A program made the position numbers and the translations under genes. From a virus, in the IMG/VR virus record IMGVR_UViG_3300020156_000011, positions 1 to 43,819 of that record: DNA of 43,819 nt; one strand, given 5' to 3'. The notes below the pieces were generated by a model that saw only the letters and a list, made by a program, of their open reading frames with translations, was not told the DNA's origin and made no database searches. Below are positions 519 through 20,644 of this stretch, piece after piece; positions within the stretch are counted from its first letter, which is position 1; each line of letters opens with the position of its first letter.

Positions 519-1382
519 ATGACCACCCCCCGCGACCTGCTGTACGTCGATCACCGTCCGGTGACGCCGTGCGATCCGCCCGCCGCCTGGATCGGCGGGA
601 AGCGACGACTGGCCCGCCGCATCTGCGCCAGCCTCGCCGCCACGCCCCACGAGGCCTATTGCGAGCCCTTCATCGGAATGGGCGGCGTCTTTCTACGCCG
701 GCGGGTGCGGCCGCCGGTAGAGGTGATCAACGATCTGTCCGGCGACGTCGTGACCCTGTTCCGGGTCCTGCAGCGGTTTCCCGACGTTTTGACGAGGGAA
801 TTGCGGTGGCGCCCCGCCATGCGGTCCGAGTTCGATCGGCTGAAGGAAAGCCGCGACGTCGACCTGTTGGACATCGAGCGGGCGGCCCGGTTCCTGTATC
901 TGCAGGCTCTGGCGTTCGGGGGAAAGGTGACCGGGCGGAACTTCGGCACGGACCCGCGACAGGCGCACAATTTCGACCTGACCCGCATCGCCTCCAGGAT
1001 CGAGCGCTTGCACGCGCGGCTGCAGGGGGTGGTGATCGAGAACCTGGACTGGCTGGCGTTCATCAGCTGCTATGACCGTCCGGGCACGCTGTTCTATCTG
1101 GACCCGCCGTATTGGGCGTCCGAGGACGACTATGGGGCCGGCATGTTCATCCGCGGCGACTTCCAACGGATGGCCGACAAGCTGCGCTCGATCGACGGTC
1201 GGTTCCTGCTGTCGATCAACGACCGTCCGGAGATCCGCGAGATGTTCGCCTGGGCCGATATGGAGGCGGTGGCCACGACCTACACGATCGCGGGTGGGGA
1301 ACATGCCGCCCCCGCCGGTGAGCTGCTGATCGCCAGAGGGGTGAATCTCGCGCCGGCCGCCGCGCAGCCGACCCTGCTCTGA
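519..1382 (+). CDS. D12-class N6-adenine DNA methyltransferase (Dam-like)
   Basis: 287 residues, normal for the D12/Dam family. Motifs in order: WIGGKRR near residues 24-30 (N-terminal SAM-site motif), EPFIGMGG at 49-56 (SAM-binding motif I), and DPPY at 195-198 (catalytic motif IV). It should transfer a methyl group from SAM to N6 of adenine in a specific DNA site. It is the last gene of the late operon, with a strong terminator 23 bases on. Methylating phage DNA late in infection would protect it from host restriction or mark it for regulation. The target site cannot be read from sequence; GANTC and GATC are both plausible in such hosts. The start at 519 has a modest upstream AAAGG. Confidence 0.92.
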   Translation: MTTPRDLLYVDHRPVTPCDPPAAWIGGKRRLARRICASLAATPHEAYCEPFIGMGGVFLRRRVRPPVEVINDLSGDVVTLFRVLQRFPDVLTRELRWRPAMRSEFDRLKESRDVDLLDIERAARFLYLQALAFGGKVTGRNFGTDPRQAHNFDLTRIASRIERLHARLQGVVIENLDWLAFISCYDRPGTLFYLDPPYWASEDDYGAGMFIRGDFQRMADKLRSIDGRFLLSINDRPEIREMFAWADMEAVATTYTIAGGEHAAPAGELLIARGVNLAPAAAQPTLL

Positions 1383-1404
1383 CAATCGCTGCCTGTCTGT
1401 CAAC

Positions 1405-1435
1405 GCCCCCGCCGGTTCGCCGGCGGGGGCTTTTT
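1405..1435 (+). terminator. Strong rho-independent terminator at end of late operon
   Basis: An 11-bp perfect GC stem (GCCCCCGCCGG pairing with CCGGCGGGGGC) with a TTCG tetraloop, followed by TTTTT at 1431-1435. It ends rightward transcription after the methyltransferase. The minus strand has no T-run, so it works for the plus strand only. Confidence 0.93.
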
Positions 1436-1440
1436 GCGTT

Positions 1441-1683
1441 TCACAGCCCGGCGGCGAGGATCCGAGCCACCATCGGGTCCTGCCGCGAGGCCTCGACCTC
1501 GGCCGCCCAGACGCGCTCGGCGTCGTCGCGATCCGCGCGGACCCTGGCCGCCTGTCGCCGGCGCGTGGTGATGCGGAAGTGAGGGCCGCCGGTCCCGCTG
1601 GCCGGCTCGGGCGGGACGTCGCAGAACTCCAGCCGCACGCCGTGCTCTTCCTTGATCAGCCGGGTCGTGGATCTGGTCGTCAT
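1441..1683 (-). CDS. Small hypothetical protein, 80 aa
   Basis: Family not recognised. The protein starts MTTRSTTRLIKEEHG and is charged and soluble, with no membrane segment. A basic stretch (RITTRRRQ) sits near the middle, and an acidic helix-like segment with DDAERVWAAEVE follows. It starts at ATG 1683 and ends just beyond the late-operon terminator, so it is the last leftward gene. Confidence 0.6.
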   Translation of the reverse strand: MTTRSTTRLIKEEHGVRLEFCDVPPEPASGTGGPHFRITTRRRQAARVRADRDDAERVWAAEVEASRQDPMVARILAAGL

Positions 1684-1719
1684 CGGAACGAGTCAGCGCC
1701 GGCGGCGGTTGGCGGTTCC

Positions 1720-1893
1720 ATGGAAGAGGACAGGCCCATCCTCGGCCGGCGGATCGTCGGGCCGGTGCGCGAGGGCGGCGAGGCGGATCGCTTCGTCGAC
1801 TGCGGCTGTGGCGCGCGGCTGGACATGCGCCGGCTGGATCTGCTGATCGCGCATGGACGGGTTTGCCCGCTGGGCGCCGATCACCGCGCCTGA
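1720..1893 (+). CDS. Small Cys-containing hypothetical protein, 57 aa
   Basis: Starts at ATG 1720 (MEEDRPILGRR...). It contains DCGCGARLDMRRLDLLIAHG followed by a further Cys, compatible with a small metal-binding fold, but only three cysteines are present. It sits alone on the plus strand between two leftward genes and overlaps the 3' end of the next one by 13 bases. The orientation is odd and no promoter is clear, so the call rests on composition and sensible amino-acid content. Confidence 0.45.
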   Translation: MEEDRPILGRRIVGPVREGGEADRFVDCGCGARLDMRRLDLLIAHGRVCPLGADHRA

Positions 1894-2237
1894 CTGGCGG
1901 CCTGGCTGCGCAGTTCGATGGCGTTGCGGACCTCGCCCGTCATGCGCAGGGGGACGGCCGAGCCGGTCAGGCTGGACTGGGCGAGGAAGACGACCTGGCC
2001 CTCGCATCGCCGGTCGGTCGACCATCGGACCCACGCCTTGCACCGTGTCGAGCGGCCCCACAGGACATAGCCGTCGCCCAGCAGGCGCCGCAGGGCCGAC
2101 AGGTCGACGTGGGTCCGGGCGTGACACGCCGGGCAGTCCGCCAGCACGATCCAGCGGCGGGCGTGCATCTCGGACAGGGTCAGGGCCGTCAGCGGGTGCG
2201 GCGGGGATGCGAGCCGATCGGGATTGGTGGCGCCCAT
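1881..2237 (-). CDS. Hypothetical protein with zinc-ribbon-like cysteines, 118 aa
   Basis: Contains CPAC near residues 35-38, then C67 (STRCKAW) and C78 (DRRCEGQ), a spacing that could bind one zinc ion. It also contains HARRWIVLAD at the start and a basic C-terminal helix. Family not recognised. It lies just downstream of the integrase in the same direction. It could be a small DNA- or RNA-binding protein or an excision partner; neither is shown by sequence. Confidence 0.6.
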   Translation of the reverse strand: MGATNPDRLASPPHPLTALTLSEMHARRWIVLADCPACHARTHVDLSALRRLLGDGYVLWGRSTRCKAWVRWSTDRRCEGQVVFLAQSSLTGSAVPLRMTGEVRNAIELRSQAASQAR

Positions 2238-2279
2238 GCCGCCCGGGATAGCGCCGGCGAGGCGCGCGCGGCAAGGGCG

Positions 2280-2405
2280 ATGTTCTGCGAATGTTCCGGG
2301 CGGCGGCCGACCCTACGCGGCGAAGCTGACAGTCTGGGGTATGTTCCGGATCGGGCTCCCGCACCCATCGATACCCCAGAGTCCGGAAACGGCTCTGGGG
2401 TTTTT
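2280..2405. other. Candidate attP region beside the integrase
   Basis: The short gap after the integrase and its last codons hold three ATGTTC boxes (2280, 2291, 2341; two read ATGTTCCGG), two TCCGGA palindromes (2345, 2382) and a strong hairpin. Large serine integrases commonly have attP next to their own gene, and there is no room on the other side (5 bases to the next gene). The last 20 or so integrase codons look non-conserved in style. This placement is inference. Confidence 0.3.
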
Positions 2406-3947
2406 CGCGTTTTGGGCCCCGGTCTGCTGGCCGCCGCCGGCGCTGATGCGCAGCAGGTCGTCGAGGCGACCGTGCACCTGCAGCTCGAACCGCCCCAGGC
2501 CCTTTAGCGGGATGAAGTCGACATGGTCGATCAGGGCCCGGAAGGCGTCGCGGACCTCGGCGCCGTCATCGGCCGCGAGCGCGTCGTCGATCGTCTCGGC
2601 CAAGGCCTGATAGGCGGCGGCCGCGCCGGGGTGAAGGGTGATGACCGGCGGGGCGTCGGCCGTGGCCAGCCGGGCCTCGATCTCTGCCCGGCGGGCCTTC
2701 AGCGGGTCGGCCGCCCGGGCCATGTCGGCCAGATCCATGGCTCCCGCCAGATAGGCGTCCTGGGCCCGGCCGAGGCGCCGGCCGATCTCGGCCAGTTCCA
2801 GCTCGAGCGGCGCGCGGTCGGCCAAGGCGGCCTTGCGGTCGGCCTGCTGGTCGGCGTGGATCGTCCGGACCGCCTCGGCGATCGCGGCGGGTGACAGCAG
2901 GTGGCGTTTCGCGCCCTCGACAACGCGGGTCTCGACCGTCGCGGCCTTGATGGCCTTTGAGTTGATGCAGACGCCGCGGTCCTTGTTGTTGGCGCAGCGA
3001 TAGACCCCGCCCTGCAGCACCATCGACCCGGCGCACAGGCGGCATTTCAGCAGGCCGGACAGCAGCCGCTTCGGTGCGCGGGCCATGGCCCGGGGCTGGG
3101 CGTCCAGGGTGCGCTGACGGGCCCGGACGGCGTTCCACGCCTCGTCCGACAGGATGCGCAGATGCGGGACGGGCTCGCGGATCCACTGGTCCGGCGGATT
3201 CAGCACGCTGGAGCGCTTGCCGGTCTCGGGGTGTTTGCGGAAGCGCCGGCGGTTGAAGACCCGCACACCGATGTAGAGTTCCTGACACAGGATGCCGTCG
3301 CCGGCGCGGCGGTCGCCCGCGATGGCCGTCGGGGCCCAGGTCCCTCCGCGGGGGCCGGGCAGGCCCTCGGCGTTCAGGGCCTTGGCGATGCGGACCGGAG
3401 ACAGGCCGGCGGCGTAGTCGGCATAGATGCGGCGCACGACGGCCGCCTCGGCGGGGTTGATGGCCAGCACGCCCTTGCCGGCCACGTCGTAGCCGTAGCA
3501 GCGGCCGCCGGCCGAGAAGCCGGCGCTGACCCGGCCGACCAAGCCGCGCCGGGTCTTCTTGCCCAGTTCGACCAGGAACAGACGGTTCATCGTGCCCTCA
3601 AGGCCGACGTGCAGTTCGGTGACGGCGCCGCCGGACAGGGTCTCGAGGCGGACGCCGGCGAAGGACAGCAGTTCGAACAGTCGGGCGGTGTCGGACTGGC
3701 TGCGGCTGAGCCGGTCCAGCGCCTCGGTCAGGACGACGTCGACGTCGCCGGCGGCGGCGGCGCGCATCAGGGCTTGGACGCCCGGCCGGGTGGTGACGGC
3801 CGCGCCCGAGACGCCCCGATCGGCGAACTCGGCCGCGACGGTCCAGCCGCGCGAGGCGCACGCGGCCCGCAGGGCGGCCAGCTGGTCGTCGGCGGAGCGC
3901 TCGGACTGCAGGTCGGACGAATAGCGGGCGTAGAGGGCGGCGCGCAT
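2313..3947 (-). CDS. Large serine recombinase (phage integrase)
   Basis: 544 residues. The N-terminal resolvase domain opens with YARYSSDLQ, placing the catalytic serine at residue 10, and includes DRGVSG and LDRLSRS. It is followed by the recombinase domain (about 165-290, with GPRGGTWAPTAI) and a zinc-ribbon domain with CRLC and later C residues (about 300-330), then a coiled-coil-rich C-terminus. It makes a double-strand exchange between attP and attB through a phosphoserine link, inserting the phage into the host chromosome; excision needs a directionality factor not identified here. The C-terminal tail runs through a plus-strand terminator hairpin, so the true functional end may be shorter. 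It starts 5 bases after the stop of the upstream gene in the leftward operon. Confidence 0.95.
   Translation of the reverse strand: MRAALYARYSSDLQSERSADDQLAALRAACASRGWTVAAEFADRGVSGAAVTTRPGVQALMRAAAAGDVDVVLTEALDRLSRSQSDTARLFELLSFAGVRLETLSGGAVTELHVGLEGTMNRLFLVELGKKTRRGLVGRVSAGFSAGGRCYGYDVAGKGVLAINPAEAAVVRRIYADYAAGLSPVRIAKALNAEGLPGPRGGTWAPTAIAGDRRAGDGILCQELYIGVRVFNRRRFRKHPETGKRSSVLNPPDQWIREPVPHLRILSDEAWNAVRARQRTLDAQPRAMARAPKRLLSGLLKCRLCAGSMVLQGGVYRCANNKDRGVCINSKAIKAATVETRVVEGAKRHLLSPAAIAEAVRTIHADQQADRKAALADRAPLELELAEIGRRLGRAQDAYLAGAMDLADMARAADPLKARRAEIEARLATADAPPVITLHPGAAAAYQALAETIDDALAADDGAEVRDAFRALIDHVDFIPLKGLGRFELQVHGRLDDLLRISAGGGQQTGAQNAKNPRAVSGLWGIDGCGSPIRNIPQTVSFAA
2374..2405 (+). terminator. 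Rho-independent terminator on plus strand, inside integrase 3' end
   Basis: CCCCAGAG (2374-2381) pairs with CTCTGGGG (2393-2400), with an inner CCG/CGG pair and a GAAA loop, followed by TTTTT at 2401-2405. It would stop rightward read-through into the integrase region. On the minus strand the hairpin lies within the integrase reading frame and has no T-run. Confidence 0.75.
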
Positions 3948-11397: not shown

Positions 11398-11419
11398 GCC
11401 GGGGCTCCGGTTCGTGGGG

Positions 11420-11647
11420 TCAGGTCTGGGTGAAGAGGCGCAGGCGCGAGACGGCCCTGCGGGCGGCGTCGCGCTGGCCCGGGCCGCGGAGCAGGCGGGG
11501 GTCGGCGTCCAGCGCCGCGCGGCCTGCCTCGGCCAGGACCAGGAGGGCGGTGGCCTCGCCATGGGTCAGGGCCAGCCGCTGGACCGGCGCCGGCGCGGGG
11601 CCGGGCCGCTCGCCCGGGCCAGAGCGACAAGCGAAGACGGCGGTCAC
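11420..11647 (-). CDS. Hypothetical protein, 75 aa
   Basis: GTG 11647 overlaps the upstream stop (GTGA), giving VTAVFACRSGPGERPG. The rest is helical and Ala/Arg-rich (THGEATALLVLAEAGRAALD, RDAARRAVSRLRLF). Family not recognised. It ends 22 bases before the ParB-like start. Confidence 0.55.
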   Translation of the reverse strand: MTAVFACRSGPGERPGPAPAPVQRLALTHGEATALLVLAEAGRAALDADPRLLRGPGQRDAARRAVSRLRLFTQT

Positions 11648-11991
11648 GCCGCCAGCCCTCCGGCGGAGCGGATCCGCTGCAGGGCCGCCTCGAGCCCGGA
11701 CGGGTCGGCGGCGATCGGCCCGGCGACGAAGCCCAGCCAGCAATCCTGAAACCGCCACGGCATGTCGGCGCCGCCGGTCGGGTCGTCGATGAAGGCGCGG
11801 GCGTCGGCGGGCTTGAGCGCGAACACGGCGAGCACGGGGAAGTCGGGGCCGTCGCCGCGCGTGCCGGTCTGGCGCAGCCAGTTCAGGCGTAGGCCGGGCC
11901 GCTGGCGCAGCAGATGGGCGGCGAGGGCGTCGGCCGAGACGAACGGGATCGGCGCGCGGGGGTCGGCCGCGGGAAAGAGGGTGGCGGCCAT
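11644..11991 (-). CDS. Hypothetical protein, 115 aa
   Basis: Starts MAATLFPAADPRAPIPFVSA. Contains GPDFPVLAVFALKPADARAF and an aromatic segment MPWRFQDCWLGFVAGPIAAD. It is soluble, alpha/beta in style, and has no named family. It starts one base after the previous stop in the leftward operon. Confidence 0.65.
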   Translation of the reverse strand: MAATLFPAADPRAPIPFVSADALAAHLLRQRPGLRLNWLRQTGTRGDGPDFPVLAVFALKPADARAFIDDPTGGADMPWRFQDCWLGFVAGPIAADPSGLEAALQRIRSAGGLAA

Positions 11992-11992
11992 G

Positions 11993-12289
11993 TCAGACGC
12001 CGCCAGCCGCGACGGCGGCGAAGGCGCCGGCGAGGGTGGTCAGGACCGCGCCGGCCAGAATGGCCCCGGCCCCCGCCAGGGCGAAGAAGGCCAGCCACCG
12101 GAAGGCGGCGTCGACCTGATCCGAGACGTCGCGCCCCGGCATCCAGTCCACGATCGGCTGGGCGGGGGGGTAATGGAACGTCGCCGCCGGCGCACGGCGT
12201 GCGTTGCCCGGGGATTCGGTCAGGACGGAGACCGCCGGTGCGGCGGATTTCCTATGATCTTCAAGGCGGATGACGGTCGCGGTGTCCAT
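11993..12289 (-). CDS. Membrane protein, 98 aa, first gene of leftward operon
   Basis: A soluble N-terminal 60 residues precede a hydrophobic C-terminal segment, FRWLAFFALAGAGAILAGAV and following residues, long enough for one long or two short membrane passes. The start ATG 12289 has GGGGAA upstream on the minus strand. It is the first gene behind the leftward promoter and operator cluster and so should be shut off in a lysogen. One copy of the dispersed palindrome lies inside it, encoding NARRA. Function unknown. Confidence 0.65.
   Translation of the reverse strand: MDTATVIRLEDHRKSAAPAVSVLTESPGNARRAPAATFHYPPAQPIVDWMPGRDVSDQVDAAFRWLAFFALAGAGAILAGAVLTTLAGAFAAVAAGGV
12189..12205. repeat. Dispersed palindrome, copy 2
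   Basis: GGCGCACGGCGTGCGTT; 13-bp core CGCACGGCGTGCG perfect, with the last base pair mismatched. Inside the 98-aa membrane-protein gene. Confidence 0.8.
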
Positions 12290-12316
12290 GTCGCATTCCC
12301 CTGTGAGGTGAATGAG

Positions 12317-12390
12317 GGATACAGTCCGTATCCATCACGCGTCAATAGGGAAGATACAAAGCGTATCCTTCGCCGTTACGGACTGTCGCC
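12317..12390. promoter_or_regulatory. Operator cluster (three sites) with leftward early promoter
   Basis: Three related 17-bp sites: GGATACAGTCCGTATCC at 12317-12333 (perfect GGATAC-N5-GTATCC), AGATACAAAGCGTATCC at 12352-12368 (one arm mismatch), and a weaker one at 12374-12390 (CGTTACGGACTGTCGCC) that matches the reverse complement of the first. On the minus strand TTGACG (12345-12340) is a good -35 element, with a weak TGTATC about 16 bases on. The first operator overlaps the spacer and -10, as for a repressed promoter driving the gene at 12289. The cluster lies between divergent genes, so it may also control 12457. Confidence 0.7.
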
Positions 12391-12456
12391 GTTCACTCCG
12401 GCGTTCCGGCTCTCCCTTCGATCGTCGGAATCCGGTAGGGTGCTGGCGGAGGCGAG

Positions 12457-12759
12457 ATGACGGACGACAAGGATCTTGAAATCGCCCGGTTGAAGGGGCG
12501 TCTGGAGGCCGCTGAGCAGCGCAGGGGCGGAGTCGTTGGCCCCACGCTGAAGGTGGTGCTGACGCTGCTGGCTATTCCCGTGGTCGTGATCCTGGTGCTG
12601 GCCCTTGTGGGGACTCTGGGGCAGCTGGTCCCGGAACCAGATCCGGCGGTCGAGGCCGCGCGGATCAACGCCTATTGCGAGAGCCAGTACGCCGGCTATG
12701 CACAGAAGGTTCGAGATGAGTGCAGGTTTCGTGAGTTCCGCGCCCGCGCCGCCGACTGA
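12457..12759 (+). CDS. Single-TM protein with N-terminal coiled coil, 100 aa
   Basis: Starts MTDDKDLEIARLKGRLEAAE, a coiled-coil helix, then one strongly hydrophobic segment (VVLTLLAIPVVVILVLALVG, about 33-52), then a charged domain of about 40 residues with two cysteines. Its stop abuts the repressor's stop tail-to-tail with no gap. The position next to the repressor and behind the operator cluster fits a phage accessory such as superinfection exclusion, but that is inference. A modest upstream GGAGGCGAG serves as ribosome site. Confidence 0.6.
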   Translation: MTDDKDLEIARLKGRLEAAEQRRGGVVGPTLKVVLTLLAIPVVVILVLALVGTLGQLVPEPDPAVEAARINAYCESQYAGYAQKVRDECRFREFRARAAD

Positions 12760-13098
12760 TCAGCTGGCCTTGCGGAACGTCTCAAGCACCTGAAGCGCGA
12801 GCGCCTGTCGGTCGTCAGGGATATTTTCCCAGAGCGCGAGGATGTCCTGCGGGACATCGTCCGGGTGCCGATCGATGATGAAGCCCGCCGGGATCTGAAG
12901 TACAGCGCCAAGGGTGCGCAGCCAACGGGTCGTCAGCTGTCGCCGCCCCGCCTCGAGGTGGCCGATCATGCCGCGTGTCGTGTCCGCGCGCTCGGCGAGT
13001 TCATCCTGCGTCCAGCCGCGGAACTCACGCCACGCGCGCAGGAAGTTGCGATCGTCGAAATCGAGCGCTGCCGTCATCGATACAATCTGCGACAGCAT
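12760..13098 (-). CDS. XRE-family (CI-like) phage repressor
   Basis: 112 residues. The HTH domain spans about 22-75: REFRGWTQDELAERADTTRG, then MIGHLEAGRRQLTTRWL and LGAVLQIPAGFII. A short C-terminal helix follows (QALALQVLETFRKAS). It lacks the LexA-like self-cleavage domain of lambda CI, so induction must work another way. Start ATG 13098 has AAAGGGGGG upstream. Divergent from the Cro-like gene with 83 bases between; it most likely binds the GGATAC-N5-GTATCC sites on both sides and holds the lysogenic state. Confidence 0.85.
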   Translation of the reverse strand: MLSQIVSMTAALDFDDRNFLRAWREFRGWTQDELAERADTTRGMIGHLEAGRRQLTTRWLRTLGAVLQIPAGFIIDRHPDDVPQDILALWENIPDDRQALALQVLETFRKAS

Positions 13099-13181
13099 GG
13101 CCCCCCTTTCGACTAACAGGCTGTACCGTTACGGCGTCATACCCTCTTGCCCGATCGGATACAATCCGTAGCCTATGGGGT
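13099..13181. promoter_or_regulatory. Genetic switch: overlapping divergent promoters and operators
   Basis: A 17-bp operator GGATACAATCCGTAGCC lies at 13157-13173 (one arm mismatch) and a weaker one at 13127-13143 (CGTTACGGCGTCATACC). Rightward: -10 TACAAT at 13160-13165, with a weak -35 at 13136-13141. Leftward: -35 TTGTAT (13164-13159), 17-base spacer, -10 TATGAC (13141-13136). The two promoters share the same bases, so a repressor on 13157-13173 would block the rightward one. Another resemblance, CGATACAATCTGCGACA, lies at 13078-13094 in the repressor's first codons. Confidence 0.65.
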
Positions 13182-13448
13182 ATGGAAACTGATTCGCACC
13201 ATGGAGCTGAGGCGGGCGAGGACGCGCAGAGCCTGAACGCCCGCCTGATCGCGGCCGGTTTGAAGAAGGCCCACGCGGGCCACCTGGCCACCGGGCGGCG
13301 CAGGCCGTCGCTCATTGTTGCGCTGAACCTCGAGGAGGCCTTGGGAATTCCGCCTGCCGCATGGCGACAAGGACCGGCGGCGGTGAAGGCCGCCCTGGCG
13401 GCCGCCGACGCCGCTCGGCCCCCTACCGCGCCGGGATGTCCCGCGTGA
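13182..13448 (+). CDS. Cro-like small HTH protein, 88 aa
   Basis: Starts METDSHHG. The core, LNARLIAAGLKKAHAGHLAT and then RRRPSLIVALNLEEALGIPP, reads as a short helix-turn-helix of the Cro/YdaS type. It is the first rightward gene, divergent from the repressor, the classical place of cro. The start has a poor ribosome site (GGGG one base away) and the predicted leader is only about 10 bases, so translation may be near-leaderless. Its 3' end overlaps the opposite-strand gene by 26 bases. Confidence 0.65.
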   Translation: METDSHHGAEAGEDAQSLNARLIAAGLKKAHAGHLATGRRRPSLIVALNLEEALGIPPAAWRQGPAAVKAALAAADAARPPTAPGCPA

Positions 13449-14079
13449 GCGGGTCGGTCGCCAGCGGGCAGCGGCCGCAGGCCCGGCAGCGGGCCGCATG
13501 GCTGTTGCGGTCGGACAGCATGATCAGCCGGGCCGTGTCGGCGACCGGACGCCGATCGACCGACAGCCGGGCCAGTTCGCTGTCCAGCAGCTGGAGTCGC
13601 CCGCGCATCTGTTTGCGGCACCCCTTGGCCTTGACCCCGGCCGGCATGACGGGCGGCGGCATCGGCGGGCGGACGCGGGTCGTCGCGGCAGGCCGCGCGG
13701 TTTCGCCGCCGAAGGCGGGGGTCCAGCGCTTTTCCATCCACGGGCCGATCTTGCGCAGGGCGCGGCGGACCCGCGCGTCCATGCCGGGATCCGGAAGCGG
13801 CGGCACGGCGCCGGGCTGGCCATATCGTTCCGCAGCCGCGCGGGCCAGATCGGGCATGCGCTCGACCGAGGTCGGCACGGCGGCGAAGGCGCGGCAGGCC
13901 CGGGAGAGGGCGGCCATGTCGCGCTGGTCGGCGGCGTCGGCCACGGCGGCCGCGGCGTCGCGGGCGGCGCGCTGCCAATCCAGCACGGCGCGCATGTGCA
14001 CCGTGGCGACGATCAGGGCGTCGCTGATTTCAGGCAGTTCGTCGAAAGACAACGGCAGATCGACCGGAACGTCGGTCAT
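13423..14079 (-). CDS. Hypothetical protein on opposite strand, 218 aa
   Basis: Starts MTDVPVDLPLSFDELPE. It has a helical Ala-rich N-terminal half, a proline-rich middle (PPMPPPVMPAG) and a C-terminal CRACGRCP block that could bind metal together with an earlier Cys. It is the only minus-strand gene inside the rightward early region, and it converges on the Cro-like gene with a 26-base overlap. Transcribing it would produce antisense RNA against the end of the Cro-like mRNA. Family not recognised. Confidence 0.6.
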   Translation of the reverse strand: MTDVPVDLPLSFDELPEISDALIVATVHMRAVLDWQRAARDAAAAVADAADQRDMAALSRACRAFAAVPTSVERMPDLARAAAERYGQPGAVPPLPDPGMDARVRRALRKIGPWMEKRWTPAFGGETARPAATTRVRPPMPPPVMPAGVKAKGCRKQMRGRLQLLDSELARLSVDRRPVADTARLIMLSDRNSHAARCRACGRCPLATDPLTRDIPAR

Positions 14080-14206
14080 GGAACCCCTCGCAACTTACGC
14101 GCCCCCCCGGGTCGCGGCTCGCCCCATTGGCGAATCGATTTCGGGCGGATGCAAGGCGTTACAAGCGCGAATGGGACGTGTGCGGACGTTTCAACCGCCG
14201 GTAAGT

Positions 14207-14224
14207 TTCCCTGACGTCGGGGAA
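14207..14224. promoter_or_regulatory. 18-bp dyad over the ribosome site of 14230
   Basis: TTCCC-t-GACGTC-g-GGGAA is symmetric except one central pair, and its GGGGAA is the ribosome-binding site for ATG 14230. It could be an operator or an RNA hairpin that hides the start. The rest of the 150-base divergent gap (14080-14229) should hold promoters for both genes, but I see no convincing -35/-10 pair. Confidence 0.45.
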
Positions 14225-14229
14225 GCGGC

Positions 14230-14586
14230 ATGACCCAGCGCCACGCCATGCGCCGGGGCGTCGCGCCCCGCCCTTCGGACAAGGACATGCGCATCTGGGC
14301 CCGGCTGCTGAAGCGTGCCGCGCCGATCGGGCGCGCGCCGCACAGCGACGGCCTGTCGTTCGTGCTGGCGGCCGAGAAGGCCGGCAAGGCGATCATGCCG
14401 CGGGGCCATCAGCACACGGCCAGCCCGTTCACCGCCCTGGTGCGGACGGGAAAGGGATGGCTGACGCTGAACGCGGCCGAGCGCGAGGCGGCGGGCGAGC
14501 GGGTGCGCGGCCTGATCGCGGAATGTGAGGCGGCGCTGGAGGCTCTGGCCGACGGCAGGCGCGAGCGGAAGGACATCGACGGATGA
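14230..14586 (+). CDS. Hypothetical protein, 118 aa
   Basis: Basic N-terminus (MTQRHAMRRGVAPRPS), then IWARLLKRAAPIG, a central Gly/His segment and a long C-terminal helix (LTLNAAEREAAGERVRGLIA). Start ATG has GGGGAAGCGGC before it. First gene of the rightward replication operon; ATGA overlap with the next. Family not recognised. Confidence 0.65.
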   Translation: MTQRHAMRRGVAPRPSDKDMRIWARLLKRAAPIGRAPHSDGLSFVLAAEKAGKAIMPRGHQHTASPFTALVRTGKGWLTLNAAEREAAGERVRGLIAECEAALEALADGRRERKDIDG

Positions 14587-17077: not shown

Positions 17078-17376
17078 TGGCGCGCCCGCTCTGCGATGAC
17101 TGGGGTTGCCCCGCCATGGCCAGCTGCGCCCTGCACTGGGGCCGGGCCGAGGCCTATTGGGCGATGTCGGAGGAACCCCGCCGGTTCCAGAAGGGCGAGC
17201 GGAAGGCGTGGCAGGCGGCTTGCCCCGAGTATCACCGCGACGTCGTTCGGCCTTGGATGATCGAAGCGCATCGGACACCGGAAACGACGCCGACCGGGGC
17301 GTGGCGGATGCCATTGTTCGTGGATGTCGGCGGCTTCGCTACTGACGCACGCCGTGCGTCGCGAGGGGGTCGCTGA
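17077..17376 (+). CDS. Cys/Trp-rich small protein, 99 aa
   Basis: MARPLCDDWGCPAMASCALH at the N-terminus gives three cysteines and a histidine, a likely metal site, followed by many aromatic residues. A fourth Cys is near 50. The 3' end carries a dispersed palindrome encoding DARRA. It overlaps the primase start by one base. Function unknown. Confidence 0.6.
   Translation: MARPLCDDWGCPAMASCALHWGRAEAYWAMSEEPRRFQKGERKAWQAACPEYHRDVVRPWMIEAHRTPETTPTGAWRMPLFVDVGGFATDARRASRGGR
17344..17360. repeat. Dispersed 17-bp palindrome, copy 4
   Basis: GACGCACGCCGTGCGTC, the exact reverse complement of copy 1. In the last codons of the gene before the primase, encoding DARRA. Confidence 0.85.
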
Positions 17377-18608
17377 TGGCTGAGACTCCCCCGATCATCC
17401 TGGAAGCGATCAAACAGGTCTCGATCGAGGCCGTCGCCGGGGTGAAGTTCACCGGCGGGGCCACCCGCGTCGGCCCCTGTCCGCTGTGCATGAAGGGCGA
17501 GACCAAAGGGACCTGTTTCAAGATCCGCGATGGGGACCGCTGGTTCTGTCACAAGTGCGAGAAGGGTGGCGACGCCGTGGCGCTGGAGGCCCTGCTGGCC
17601 AACGTCGGCATGGTCGAGGCCGCCCGCCGTCTGCTGGGCGGGGCGTGGCGCGAGCGGGTGGCGGAGCCGGCAGCGGATCCCCGGCCGAAGGCGCGGTCGG
17701 AGAGCGCCGAGGCCGAGGCCGCCCGCAAGGCCGGGTACGCGGCCGAGATCTGGCGAGGGGGCCAGCCGTTCGCCGGCAGCCCGGCCGAGGCCTATCTGGC
17801 CGGGCGCGGGATCGTGCCCGAGGTGCTGCAGGCCATGGCGCCGAACCTGAGGTTCAATCCGCGTGCGAGATGGTTCTGGGACGTGGCCGGGCGGCGCTGG
17901 GTTACGGCGGCGGCGATGGTCGCCCTGGTGGTCGTGGCGGGTGGCGACGGCCGGCCGGTCGCCACCGGCGGGGTGCATGTGACCGCGCTGGAGGAAGACG
18001 GCGCCGGGGGGTGGGTGAAGGCCACGGACCGGCGGACCCTGCCGCCCGGCGAAAAGCCGGTCAGCGCCAAGGTGATGTGGGGGCCGCAGGGTCTGGACGG
18101 ACGCGCCGGCGGGACCTGGCTGATCGGTCCGGACGCGTCGTGGCTGGAGGGCGTCGACGGGGCGGTGGGGGCCGAGGGGATCGAGACCTCGGCGTCCATG
18201 GCCAGCCTGTCGTTCCTGAAGCACGGGGTCGTGCCCCGGGCCTGGGCGGCGTTGTCGTTGGACCGGCTGCAGGGCCGGCTGGCGCAGGACGACGACAGGT
18301 GCGTCGACCTGAAGACGTTGGCGGCCCGGCCGGGTTCCGCCTTCGTCTGGCCCGGCATGGACGACGTCGAAATTGGCGTGGACCGGGACATGGGGCCCTT
18401 CACCCTCAGGGCCCGTGCGGGACCGAAGAACAAGCCTTGTGAGGTGACGCTGGATGGCGAGGCGCGGGCGCGGATCTGCGCCCGGATGGCCACTGCCGCC
18501 TGGCGTGAGGCCGGGGCGCGCAAGGTATGGGCGATCGCGCCGCCGGCGAGGATGGATTTCAACGACGAACTGCGCCGCGTGCTGGCGCAGACGGGGGCCG
18601 CTGCGTGA
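17376..18608 (+). CDS. DNA primase with zinc ribbon and TOPRIM domain
   Basis: 410 residues. A zinc ribbon formed by C35, C38 (GPCPLCMKG), C58 and C61 (FCHKCEKGG) binds template DNA. The middle region resembles phage primases of the DUF7146 type. The TOPRIM motif EGIETSAS at 267-274 provides the catalytic glutamate, and later acidic residues (PGMDDVEIGVDRD) complete it. It lays RNA primers at the phage fork. Its stop overlaps the helicase start (GTGA), so the two are co-translated and likely act together. Confidence 0.88.
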   Translation: MAETPPIILEAIKQVSIEAVAGVKFTGGATRVGPCPLCMKGETKGTCFKIRDGDRWFCHKCEKGGDAVALEALLANVGMVEAARRLLGGAWRERVAEPAADPRPKARSESAEAEAARKAGYAAEIWRGGQPFAGSPAEAYLAGRGIVPEVLQAMAPNLRFNPRARWFWDVAGRRWVTAAAMVALVVVAGGDGRPVATGGVHVTALEEDGAGGWVKATDRRTLPPGEKPVSAKVMWGPQGLDGRAGGTWLIGPDASWLEGVDGAVGAEGIETSASMASLSFLKHGVVPRAWAALSLDRLQGRLAQDDDRCVDLKTLAARPGSAFVWPGMDDVEIGVDRDMGPFTLRARAGPKNKPCEVTLDGEARARICARMATAAWREAGARKVWAIAPPARMDFNDELRRVLAQTGAAA

Positions 18609-20446
18609 GTGACGACGGGTACGAGGTGCTGAGCGGCGGCGACGCCGAGGTCGAGCGGAAGCTGGGGGTGTTTCCCAATCCGCCGCTGAAGGAATGCCCG
18701 GTCGTGCCGTTGGGGTTCGATGGCGGCCGGGTGTTCTTCGCCATGCCCGAGGGCGAGATCCGCAGCGAGCCGGCGTCGAAGATCGCGGGGATGCTGCGCA
18801 CCGACATCTTCTGCAGCGAGGCCGGGCAGGCGTTCCTGACCTATTGGCGGCCGCCCGAGGACGACAACAAGTTCGCGGCGCCCCTGATGGCGGTCTGGTT
18901 CAACCGCCAGTGCCGCAACGCCGGCAAGTGGGACACGCGGCGGGCCATGCGGTCGCTGGGCGTCTGGCCCGGGGATCCGGGCGAGGTCGTGCTGCACAAG
19001 GGCGACGAGATCTGGCGCTATGCGCCGGACGGGAGCCTGACGAAGGTGTCGGTCGCGGACAGCCTGAGGGTCAGGACCGGGCCGCTCTACAAGCTGTTCC
19101 CCCCGGCCCCCCAGCCGGGCGAGCCGGCCTCGGCGGCCGACGGGCAGTGGTTCCGCGATCAGCTGGACATGTGGCGGTTCGAGACCCTGGAGGAAGAGGG
19201 CCTGACCGGCGCGGACGTGCTGGCCGGCTGGATCATGGGGGCTCTGCTGGGGGCGGTGCCGGCGTTCCGTCCGCACCTGCTGATCCGGGCGCTGGCGGGA
19301 TCGGGCAAGACGACCCTGATGACGCTGGTCCATGCGCTGATGTCGGCGCTGACCGGGGATCTGATCAACAGCTTCTCGGACGCGGGCTGGCGGGCGGACA
19401 TCGCCGGCATGGCCCGGCCGCTGGCGGTCGACGAGGCGGAGTCCAGCGGCGGGGACGGCGGGCCGGGGCCGGTGGAGCAGGTGCTGAACTATCTGCGCCT
19501 GATGGCCACGGGGGCCGGCCAGAACCGCAAGATGGGCGATGTCGGCGGCGGGGTGCTGAGCCAGACCGCCGTGGGCTCGGCGATCCTCGCTGCCATCCTG
19601 CCGCCGCCGCTGGACAGCGCCCTGGCGACGCGGGTCGTCGATATCAAGCTGCTGGCCCTCGACGAGCGCGACCTGGCCGAACAGGACCGGGTGCGGGAGA
19701 TGTCGACCGATCCGGAGATCGTGGCCGCGACGACGAAGGCGCGTGCGCTGGCGCCCGCCATGTTGGCCCGGGCCCTGCTGGGGGCGGGGCGATACCAGTC
19801 CGAGACCGCCATGATGAAGGCGGCGCTGATCCAGGCGAAGCAGGATCCCCGGACCGCTGACCTGATCGCCTCGCTGGCCGCCGGCCGGCGGCTGCTGACC
19901 ACGGACGCCCCCCTGACCCCCGAGGAGGCGGACGCCGACGTCCGGTTCTGGAGCCCCCTGCTGAAGCGCAGGGCGCAGAACGAGGCGGTGTCGAACCCGG
20001 GGGCGGACCTGCTGGGCCACATCATGGCCTGGGAGACGCCCCAGCACATGAACGATCGCCGCGTGACGGTTGGCGACCTGGTGGCGAAGTGGGCCTCAGG
20101 CGAGGACATCAACCTGTCGGTCCTGAAGAACCTCGGCCTGCGGCTGTACGCCGGCCATGGTCCGGACGGGCGGGAGGGGCCATGGCTGTTCGTCTCGAAC
20201 AAACACCCCGGGCTGGAGAAGATGACGGCCCGCACCGCCTGGAAGGATCACCGGGCGACGCTCGAGTATCTCGACCAGCTGGGCCCCGACCACAAGACGT
20301 GGGCGGTCAAGTCCCTGAAGTACGGCCCGGGCCAGCAGCATCGCGGGCTGGCCGTCCCCCTCGCCCCCTGGTTGGAAAGGCCCGCCTCGCGCGGCGTTCC
20401 CTCTGGCGTTCCCTCTGGCGTTCCCGGTGAAGCCGATGAGTTTTAA
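18605..20446 (+). CDS. Replicative helicase/ATPase partner of primase
   Basis: 613 residues from GTG 18605. Walker A ALAGSGKTTL at 229-238 and Walker B LAVDEAES at 273-280; downstream LDSALATRVVDIKLLALD could supply sensor/arginine residues. The layout (N-terminal domain of about 200, central ATPase, C-terminal domain of about 150) fits DUF927/D5-like phage helicases rather than DnaB. It would unwind DNA at the origin for the adjacent primase. The last residues repeat VPSG three times; this is the protein reading of the CGTTCCC repeats of the adjoining array, so DNA function may shape the C-terminus. Confidence 0.78.
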   Translation: MSDDGYEVLSGGDAEVERKLGVFPNPPLKECPVVPLGFDGGRVFFAMPEGEIRSEPASKIAGMLRTDIFCSEAGQAFLTYWRPPEDDNKFAAPLMAVWFNRQCRNAGKWDTRRAMRSLGVWPGDPGEVVLHKGDEIWRYAPDGSLTKVSVADSLRVRTGPLYKLFPPAPQPGEPASAADGQWFRDQLDMWRFETLEEEGLTGADVLAGWIMGALLGAVPAFRPHLLIRALAGSGKTTLMTLVHALMSALTGDLINSFSDAGWRADIAGMARPLAVDEAESSGGDGGPGPVEQVLNYLRLMATGAGQNRKMGDVGGGVLSQTAVGSAILAAILPPPLDSALATRVVDIKLLALDERDLAEQDRVREMSTDPEIVAATTKARALAPAMLARALLGAGRYQSETAMMKAALIQAKQDPRTADLIASLAAGRRLLTTDAPLTPEEADADVRFWSPLLKRRAQNEAVSNPGADLLGHIMAWETPQHMNDRRVTVGDLVAKWASGEDINLSVLKNLGLRLYAGHGPDGREGPWLFVSNKHPGLEKMTARTAWKDHRATLEYLDQLGPDHKTWAVKSLKYGPGQQHRGLAVPLAPWLERPASRGVPSGVPSGVPGEADEF

Positions 20447-20644
20447 GGGGAAACCGCCGCCGGGAACGGTGGGAACGGTGGGAACGCCACCGCCTCCCGG
20501 GTGCAGGCGCAGGGGCGCACGACGCCACAGGTCCGTTCCCTGCGTTCCCGGCGTTCCCTCTCTCTTTTCTTATAGCAGTTTCAATAGAATAGACCGGAAC
20601 AGGGCTGGGAACGCCTTGGGAACGGTCGAGTTCGGGGCGTTCCA
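20395..20644. repeat. Iteron-like array of GGGAACG boxes (candidate origin or control region)
   Basis: Eleven exact boxes: CGTTCCC at 20395, 20407, 20419 (12-bp steps); GGGAACG at 20462, 20471, 20480 (9-bp steps); CGTTCCC at 20534, 20543, 20552 (9-bp steps); GGGAACG at 20607 and 20618. Variants CGGAACA (20595) and CGTTCCA (20638) add two. Groups two and three form a long inverted repeat about 47 bp apart. Bases 20556-20592 are AT-rich in a GC-rich genome, like a duplex-opening element. It begins in the helicase 3' end and fills the gap before 20645. Origin is the leading reading; operators for the next gene are the alternative. Confidence 0.75.

Follow-up and report, generated by a model that had tools for sequence, protein, structure and literature searches.

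P4 carries two separated sites, ori and crr, and a type I iteron, GGTGAACAGT, that resembles the box GGTGAACGT of one of the loci described here (L107); its alpha protein, in which primase and helicase are fused, reads its own iterons through a C-terminal winged-helix domain. To our knowledge, few temperate phages other than those of the lambda, P2 and P4 groups have a known origin. The pri-rep-ori modules of SaPI/PICI satellites (SaPIbov1, SaPI5, EcCICFT073) also combine a primase with an initiator helicase, the two sometimes being fused. There, the C-terminal domain of the helicase sets iteron specificity, that of SaPI Rep binding the iterons directly 3′ of its gene, apparently as two hexamers (PMC7581432), and the iterons of PICI origins flank an AT-rich region on both sides (PMC6092414). 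In SCCmec, the C-terminal domain of the Cch2 helicase binds iterons just 3′ of its own gene (PMC7581432), and in the PLE satellites of Vibrio cholerae the DNA-binding domain of the initiator and the iteron origin co-vary and are swapped as modules (PMC8263062).

The locus compared here with these systems lies in an IMG/VR phage record that was analysed over its whole length of 43,819 bp (GC 71%; hereafter the window). It comprises an array of short boxes which, judging from its relatives, is very likely the phage's own iteron replication origin, recognised by the upstream primase-helicase through its C-terminal winged-helix domain. The window encodes the small and large terminase subunits (terminase gpA), portal, capsid/protease and tail proteins, and a large serine integrase, so that the phage is probably temperate. 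The relevant features are as follows:

2313–3947, minus strand: large serine integrase (Resolvase and Recombinase)
17376–18608, plus strand: DnaG-type primase gene (DUF7146; phrog_510), the first gene of the replication module
18527–20446, plus strand: P-loop helicase gene P0001, of an unnamed family (phrog_21086; weak match to the primase phrog_35358), the proposed initiator
19994–20371, plus strand: C-terminal domain of the helicase (residues 490–615, H-E-E-H-H-E-E-H-H-E-E), the proposed box-reading domain
20395–20425, minus strand: box group 1, three CGTTCCC at 20395, 20407 and 20419 (12-bp steps), within the last helicase codons
20462–20486, plus strand: box group 2, three GGGAACG at 20462, 20471 and 20480 (9-bp steps)
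20487–20533, unstranded: 47-bp spacer separating the facing triplets
20534–20558, minus strand: box group 3, three CGTTCCC at 20534, 20543 and 20552 (9-bp steps), facing group 2
20565–20601, unstranded: AT-rich stretch, the proposed unwinding element, in the same position in relatives
20607–20624, plus strand: box group 4, two GGGAACG at 20607 and 20618 (11-bp step)
20638–20644, minus strand: near-match box CGTTCCA, directly ahead of the next start codon
20645–21373, plus strand: P0002, the neighbouring gene, of unknown function and not considered the box reader, its family confined to the window's clade

Comparison with relatives suggests that the start of P0001 is probably the GTG codon at position 18605, which overlaps the stop of the primase. 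Among these relatives, the helicases of L045 (76%) and L025 (72%) match it, and the primase-helicase synteny of the window is seen in L025, L045, L059, L060 and L063–L065.

In agreement with a preliminary description of the window, there are eleven exact GGGAACG/CGTTCCC boxes in 230 bp (20395–20624), in the order <<< >>> <<< >>, with the triplets at the 12- or 9-bp steps that it had given. The rest of the window (43.6 kb) contains only six further exact boxes, and the Poisson probability of finding at least eleven GGGAACG boxes per 250 bp (P ~2e-24) rules out a chance cluster. Groups 2 and 3 do form a long inverted repeat (21 nt, 90%, with a 54-nt gap), and the array does begin in the last codons of the helicase, group 1 encoding VPSGVPSGVP at its C-terminus. 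Two points needed correction. Of two near matches claimed, that at 20638 (CGTTCCA) differs by one mismatch, but the other (at about 20595, CGGAACA) requires two; and the AT-rich stretch, which is the AT-richest 37-mer of the window (68% AT, against 57% for the next best), begins at 20565, 9 bp to the right of the interval first assigned to it (20556–20592). Three of the box groups lie on one side of this stretch and one on the other. A search of the window for a second GGGAACG cluster, comparable to a separate crr-like site, found none, and the cumulative GC skew has no turning point at the array. There is likewise no DnaA box (TTWTNCACA) anywhere in the 43,819 bp, which sets the locus apart from DnaA-dependent iteron plasmid origins.

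The locus resembles the SaPI/PICI modules in that the array lies directly 3′ of the helicase gene, with the primase adjacent or fused, and in that multiple short iterons flank an AT-rich region on either side; the third likeness, iteron specificity set by the C-terminal domain, is seen through covariation in fused relatives only. However, SaPI/PICI are satellites without a capsid/terminase set of their own, whereas the window represents a full tailed phage. Furthermore, the iterons here come in alternating threes with a central spacer, often overprinted on the C-terminal codons of the helicase, and the helicases have no match to the Pfam DUF927/D5 helicase profiles. The earlier likening of the array to the P4 origin holds in part: the fused relatives share with P4 a C-terminal winged-helix domain that appears to read the iterons, but the layout is nearer to that of SaPI/PICI, with a single compact array just past the 3′ end of the gene in place of ori and crr, and the P4-family profiles (D5_N, primase_Cterm) match neither P0001 nor the fused proteins. 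A distant relative, L182, alone scores, weakly, to TIGR01613. PLE RepA differs in being a RepA_N initiator and not a helicase, with three semi-palindromic iterons of about 30 bp and few specificity types without a residue-level code, and SCCmec Cch2 in belonging to a staphylococcal cassette and another helicase family, with just three 5-nt iterons.

Three GGGAACG boxes at 9-bp steps were sought in 2.9 million viral contigs. This pattern matched 42 contigs, about 18 of which have the same alternating array, located at the 3′ end of a primase-helicase gene wherever the flanking sequence suffices. Scanning genomes for the inverted pattern brought in Paramagnetospirillum, Nitrobacter and two MAGs of Alphaproteobacteria; an array of this kind is present in Paramagnetospirillum caucaseum SO-1 (L047). 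Most alternating-array loci from the two scans encode a fused primase-helicase of about 1000 aa with DUF7146, Toprim_3 and a P-loop (A2-type); the primase and helicase genes of the window and its close relatives are split (A1-type), and comparing the profiles of these two families of helicase revealed no significant similarity. The triplet pattern matched the seed genome only among 385 alphaproteobacterial genomes, which marks the exact GGGAACG type as rare. Pattern matches in viral loci of 40% GC and in Verrucomicrobiota and Streptomyces were rejected as origins, being GNG coding repeats or chance. In L005, L008, L010, L013, L014, L016, L034 and L044, GGGAACG occurs on one strand at multiples of 9 bp within a long ORF (about 1000–1100 aa where complete, with a PASTA match in L005), and is a GNG coding repeat and not an origin element. 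We also note that the P-loop of L038, L069 and other A2-type predicted helicases (at about residue 600) has the sequence PTPGTGATLMVD, in which the lysine typical of Walker A is missing, and that of L015 reads GSGKG.

Relatives were also retrieved blind to the boxes, by helicase sequence alone, and over-represented 7-mers were then sought at the gene end. The preliminary description had proposed looking for the boxes beside homologous primase-helicase pairs, and the outcome is strongly positive. In every A2-type locus whose contig includes the end of the gene (78/78), an array outscores the control windows of that locus, and arrays were found in 19 of 19 loci of the window's helicase clade and in 12 of 16 distant helicase relatives, several weaker arrays in these last two counts having been recognised by eye and not by score. 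In the distant relatives L177, L180, L181 and L183, no array was found within 420 bp of the stop. The TTAGACA arrays of L172, L173 and L175 lie about 300–420 bp past the helicase stop, farther downstream than in other lineages.

The box word varies by lineage (more than 20 words) and is largely uniform within one array. A1-type words are GGGAACG, GGAACG, GGGACG, a GGGACG/TGTGACG mix, GTAACG (in circular phage-plasmids of Phaeobacter), TTAGACA, GAGACAC, GAAACG and TGTGAG (in Synechococcus phage MinM1), and A2-type arrays use no fewer than 14, all of the pattern GKGNNYNT. Conserved across lineages are the order <<<>>><<<>> and the 8–9-bp steps of the central triplets. The spacer between the facing triplets measures 47–72 bp in relatives and in many consists of alternating CG and is palindromic. 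The AT-rich 30-mer after the third group is also kept, mostly at 70–87% AT in window-clade loci of about 30% AT, and a TCAATRGGTTR motif beside it is conserved in many arrays, not all. A2 arrays hold a median of 11 exact box copies (range 8–16).

The reading frame across the boxes likewise differs between lineages. A2-type proteins translate the entire array, as a tail of the form GERGERGER ... RSPRSPRSP; in the A1-type helicases of the window and its close relatives the stop falls inside the array and the remainder is noncoding; and L015 and L052 carry the same boxes in another frame, as GNVGNVGN. The resulting tail peptides are VPSG followed by noncoding sequence in the window, and GER, GNV, GDV, GEP or GSQ elsewhere. 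Given the wholly translated arrays of the fused relatives, and the true GNG coding repeats that GGGAACG forms at 9-bp multiples in unrelated loci of 40% GC, one might regard the repeats as a protein feature, namely a low-complexity, repetitive C-terminal tail of which the DNA repeat is a by-product. This is scarcely credible for an array that is mostly noncoding in the window and its clade, that has boxes on both strands, and whose frame differs among phages while the tail peptide follows the box. The occurrence of the same boxes in differing frames or in noncoding DNA indicates instead that they are conserved as DNA. At the level of sequence, the array, its layout, its place at the 3′ end of the helicase gene and its conservation as DNA and not protein are evident in this family, as are lineage-specific concerted box changes and the joint replacement of the box with the C-terminal domain; the fused relatives show a recognition code in addition.

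This code concerns the A2 C-terminal domain (residues 801–885, L069 numbering). Among A2 pairs with an ATPase identity of at least 0.95, this domain is 98% identical where the box is the same and 73% identical where it differs. Pairs with 96–100% identical primase and ATPase domains and different boxes differ mainly in this winged-helix domain; between L113 and L133, for example, the ATPase is 100%, the primase 96% and the C-terminal domain 66% identical. An association scan of all columns against single box letters gave its sharpest peaks in the C-terminal domain. Letter 2 is associated with residues 875/878 (V/I and Q/K/N with G; T/S/K/R and G/R with T), letter 4 with residue 879 (A with A; T/V/S with G; L with T), letter 5 with residue 845 (Q with A, R with G), letter 6 with residue 847 (T with C, I with T) and letter 7 with residue 851 (K with G; M/I/Q/T/S with C). 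These five residue sites match the five box letters in 71 of 71 single-box loci, one of which has K845 with letter A. In a structure model of the domain (pLDDT 88–95 over the winged helix), residues 845, 847 and 851 are placed on the third, recognition helix and residues 875–879 at the wing tip, which are the usual DNA contacts of winged helices. Foldseek searches with this model returned nothing below E 0.2, and the top matches, all at E of 0.2 or above, include the winged helices of FOXN1 (forkhead), RctB, Cdt1 and ORC1.

Since the array is contiguous with the C-terminal codons, and swaps replace both, the two could in principle co-vary merely as co-recombining neighbours, the box having an unrelated function such as a packaging or recombination site; in the window, the terminase genes begin about 0.8–1.4 kb downstream of the array. 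Linkage of this kind, however, fails to predict that single helix and wing-tip residues match single box letters across lineages, with sensible residue-base chemistry (Gln-A, Arg-G, Lys-G). On the ATPase-domain tree, letters 2, 4, 5, 6 and 7 switched 12, 9, 2, 8 and 6 times, respectively, with the residue changing each time, and parallel changes recur (9, 6, 2, 6 and 6 switches) on a C-terminal tree built without the specificity columns, which is itself poorly supported, so that sign tests on its strongest branches come down to few pairs. Moreover, the helix residues still fit in L015-type phages with a different primase (L189 and L192, as well as L185–L187 and L196, which we weigh against linkage in particular). 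Co-recombination as the whole explanation is accordingly very improbable.

The code also carries over to loci fetched later, correctly giving 26 of 27 complete five-letter boxes in non-identical A7-derived loci (the exception being letter 5 of L226), although their relatedness to the training set makes this a test of consistency and not fully independent proof. In distant lineages (L188, L191, L193–L195, L197, L198, L276–L278, L295) the predictions fail or are undefined because of unseen residues (Val847) or an unalignable wing. The covariation of box letters with single helicase residues points to the primase-helicase's own C-terminal domain as the box reader in the fused relatives, and lends support to the earlier proposal that the adjacent primase-helicase binds the array. 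Because array and reader domain are contiguous or overlapping, joint swaps would be easy.

For the window's own helicase subfamily, the structure model of P0001 (A1 family) is confident only in residues 490–615 (pLDDT 70–85), where the modelled alpha/beta domain is compatible with winged helices, perhaps in tandem; Foldseek of the full model gave nothing significant. When a residue-level code was sought in this family, the columns were inseparable from phylogeny, there being few independent box changes, and residue 571 (H/K versus A/Q/R/V) is only suggestive as a box-specificity site. By analogy with the A2 proteins, and from its position and the shared layout, we infer that the P0001 C-terminal domain reads GGGAACG.

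The covariation bears as well on a transcriptional role, in which the boxes would be an operator bound by the 20645 protein (P0002), or by an autoregulating helicase, and would control the downstream genes. The array runs up to the start codon of P0002, with the near-match box at 20638 overlapping the upstream edge of the gene, and the P0002 family adjoins the array in six clade members. Yet this family is missing from all array carriers outside the window's clade, where arrays occur without it, and the gene after the array varies by lineage, encoding a NusG-like or an unrelated protein in L060 and L059. The boxes co-vary with helicase residues, and 10–13 of them beside an AT-rich stretch exceed the needs of an operator. 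We thus regard an operator as unlikely, and binding by the 20645 protein, named in the preliminary description as a competing account, is disfavoured; autoregulation by the helicase might be a second role of the boxes.

The family-wide arrays and the covariation instead favour the original proposal of an iteron origin to which the neighbouring primase-helicase binds, and the array is most probably where phage replication starts. We infer that physical binding, melting, helicase loading and replication start, and hence firing, take place there. About a dozen boxes of 7–9 bp, arranged in threes of alternating orientation (<<< >>> spacer <<< AT-rich >>), would hold helicase subunits that face each other across the 50–70-bp spacer; the neighbouring AT-rich stretch would then be opened, the helicase and the phage primase loaded, and synthesis begun for lytic replication. 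The number of boxes, about 12, is no more than suggestive of two hexamers. The array need not serve lysogenic maintenance, since some relatives also encode repA/repB. In the Phaeobacter phage-plasmid L184 (NZ_CP010703.1; 1–2099 and 30394–33451), for instance, repA/repB, a primase-helicase and a GTAACG array are found, possibly as separate modules for maintenance and lytic replication, and because of repA/repB this plasmid was dropped as proof of autonomous replication. L184 also has an acyl-homoserine-lactone synthase.

Our literature search, which left most subscription journals outside its scope, found no paper describing this element; the literal string GGGAACG returned chance primer matches only, and a survey of alphaproteobacterial phages makes no mention of origins (PMC10783043). 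An iteron origin served by an initiator helicase is of a known kind, to which the family-wide recognition code is a notable addition. On balance, we favour the view that these loci form a widespread and apparently undescribed class of replicon, mainly in tailed phages and phage-plasmids of Alphaproteobacteria, whose origin is either overprinted on the DNA-binding domain of its initiator helicase or directly adjacent to it. Reader and sites would then form one cassette, and a nearly programmable residue-to-base code would yield dozens of mutually exclusive specificities. For hundreds of phages, sequence alone would reveal the likely origin together with its reader and recognition code; with the code known, origin specificity becomes predictable and testable by single substitutions. 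This bears on phage-phage incompatibility, on satellites that may hijack such origins, and on the joint change of an initiator and its sites, including arrays that appear half-converted.

Finally, L022 carries two primase-helicase copies in opposite orientation (886–3801, plus strand; 11408–14245, minus strand) on one 14-kb contig, a doubling that is probably an assembly artefact. Two box words, for example GGGAATGT and GGGAACGT, are mixed in L070, L072, L073, L138, L253, L254, L255, L258 and L260. It is possible that mixed arrays (L070, L072, L073, L138 and L253–L255 among them) are snapshots of an array in mid-conversion. In mixed arrays the reader residue already fits one of the two box words, and the four with mixed C/T at letter 6 have Ile847.
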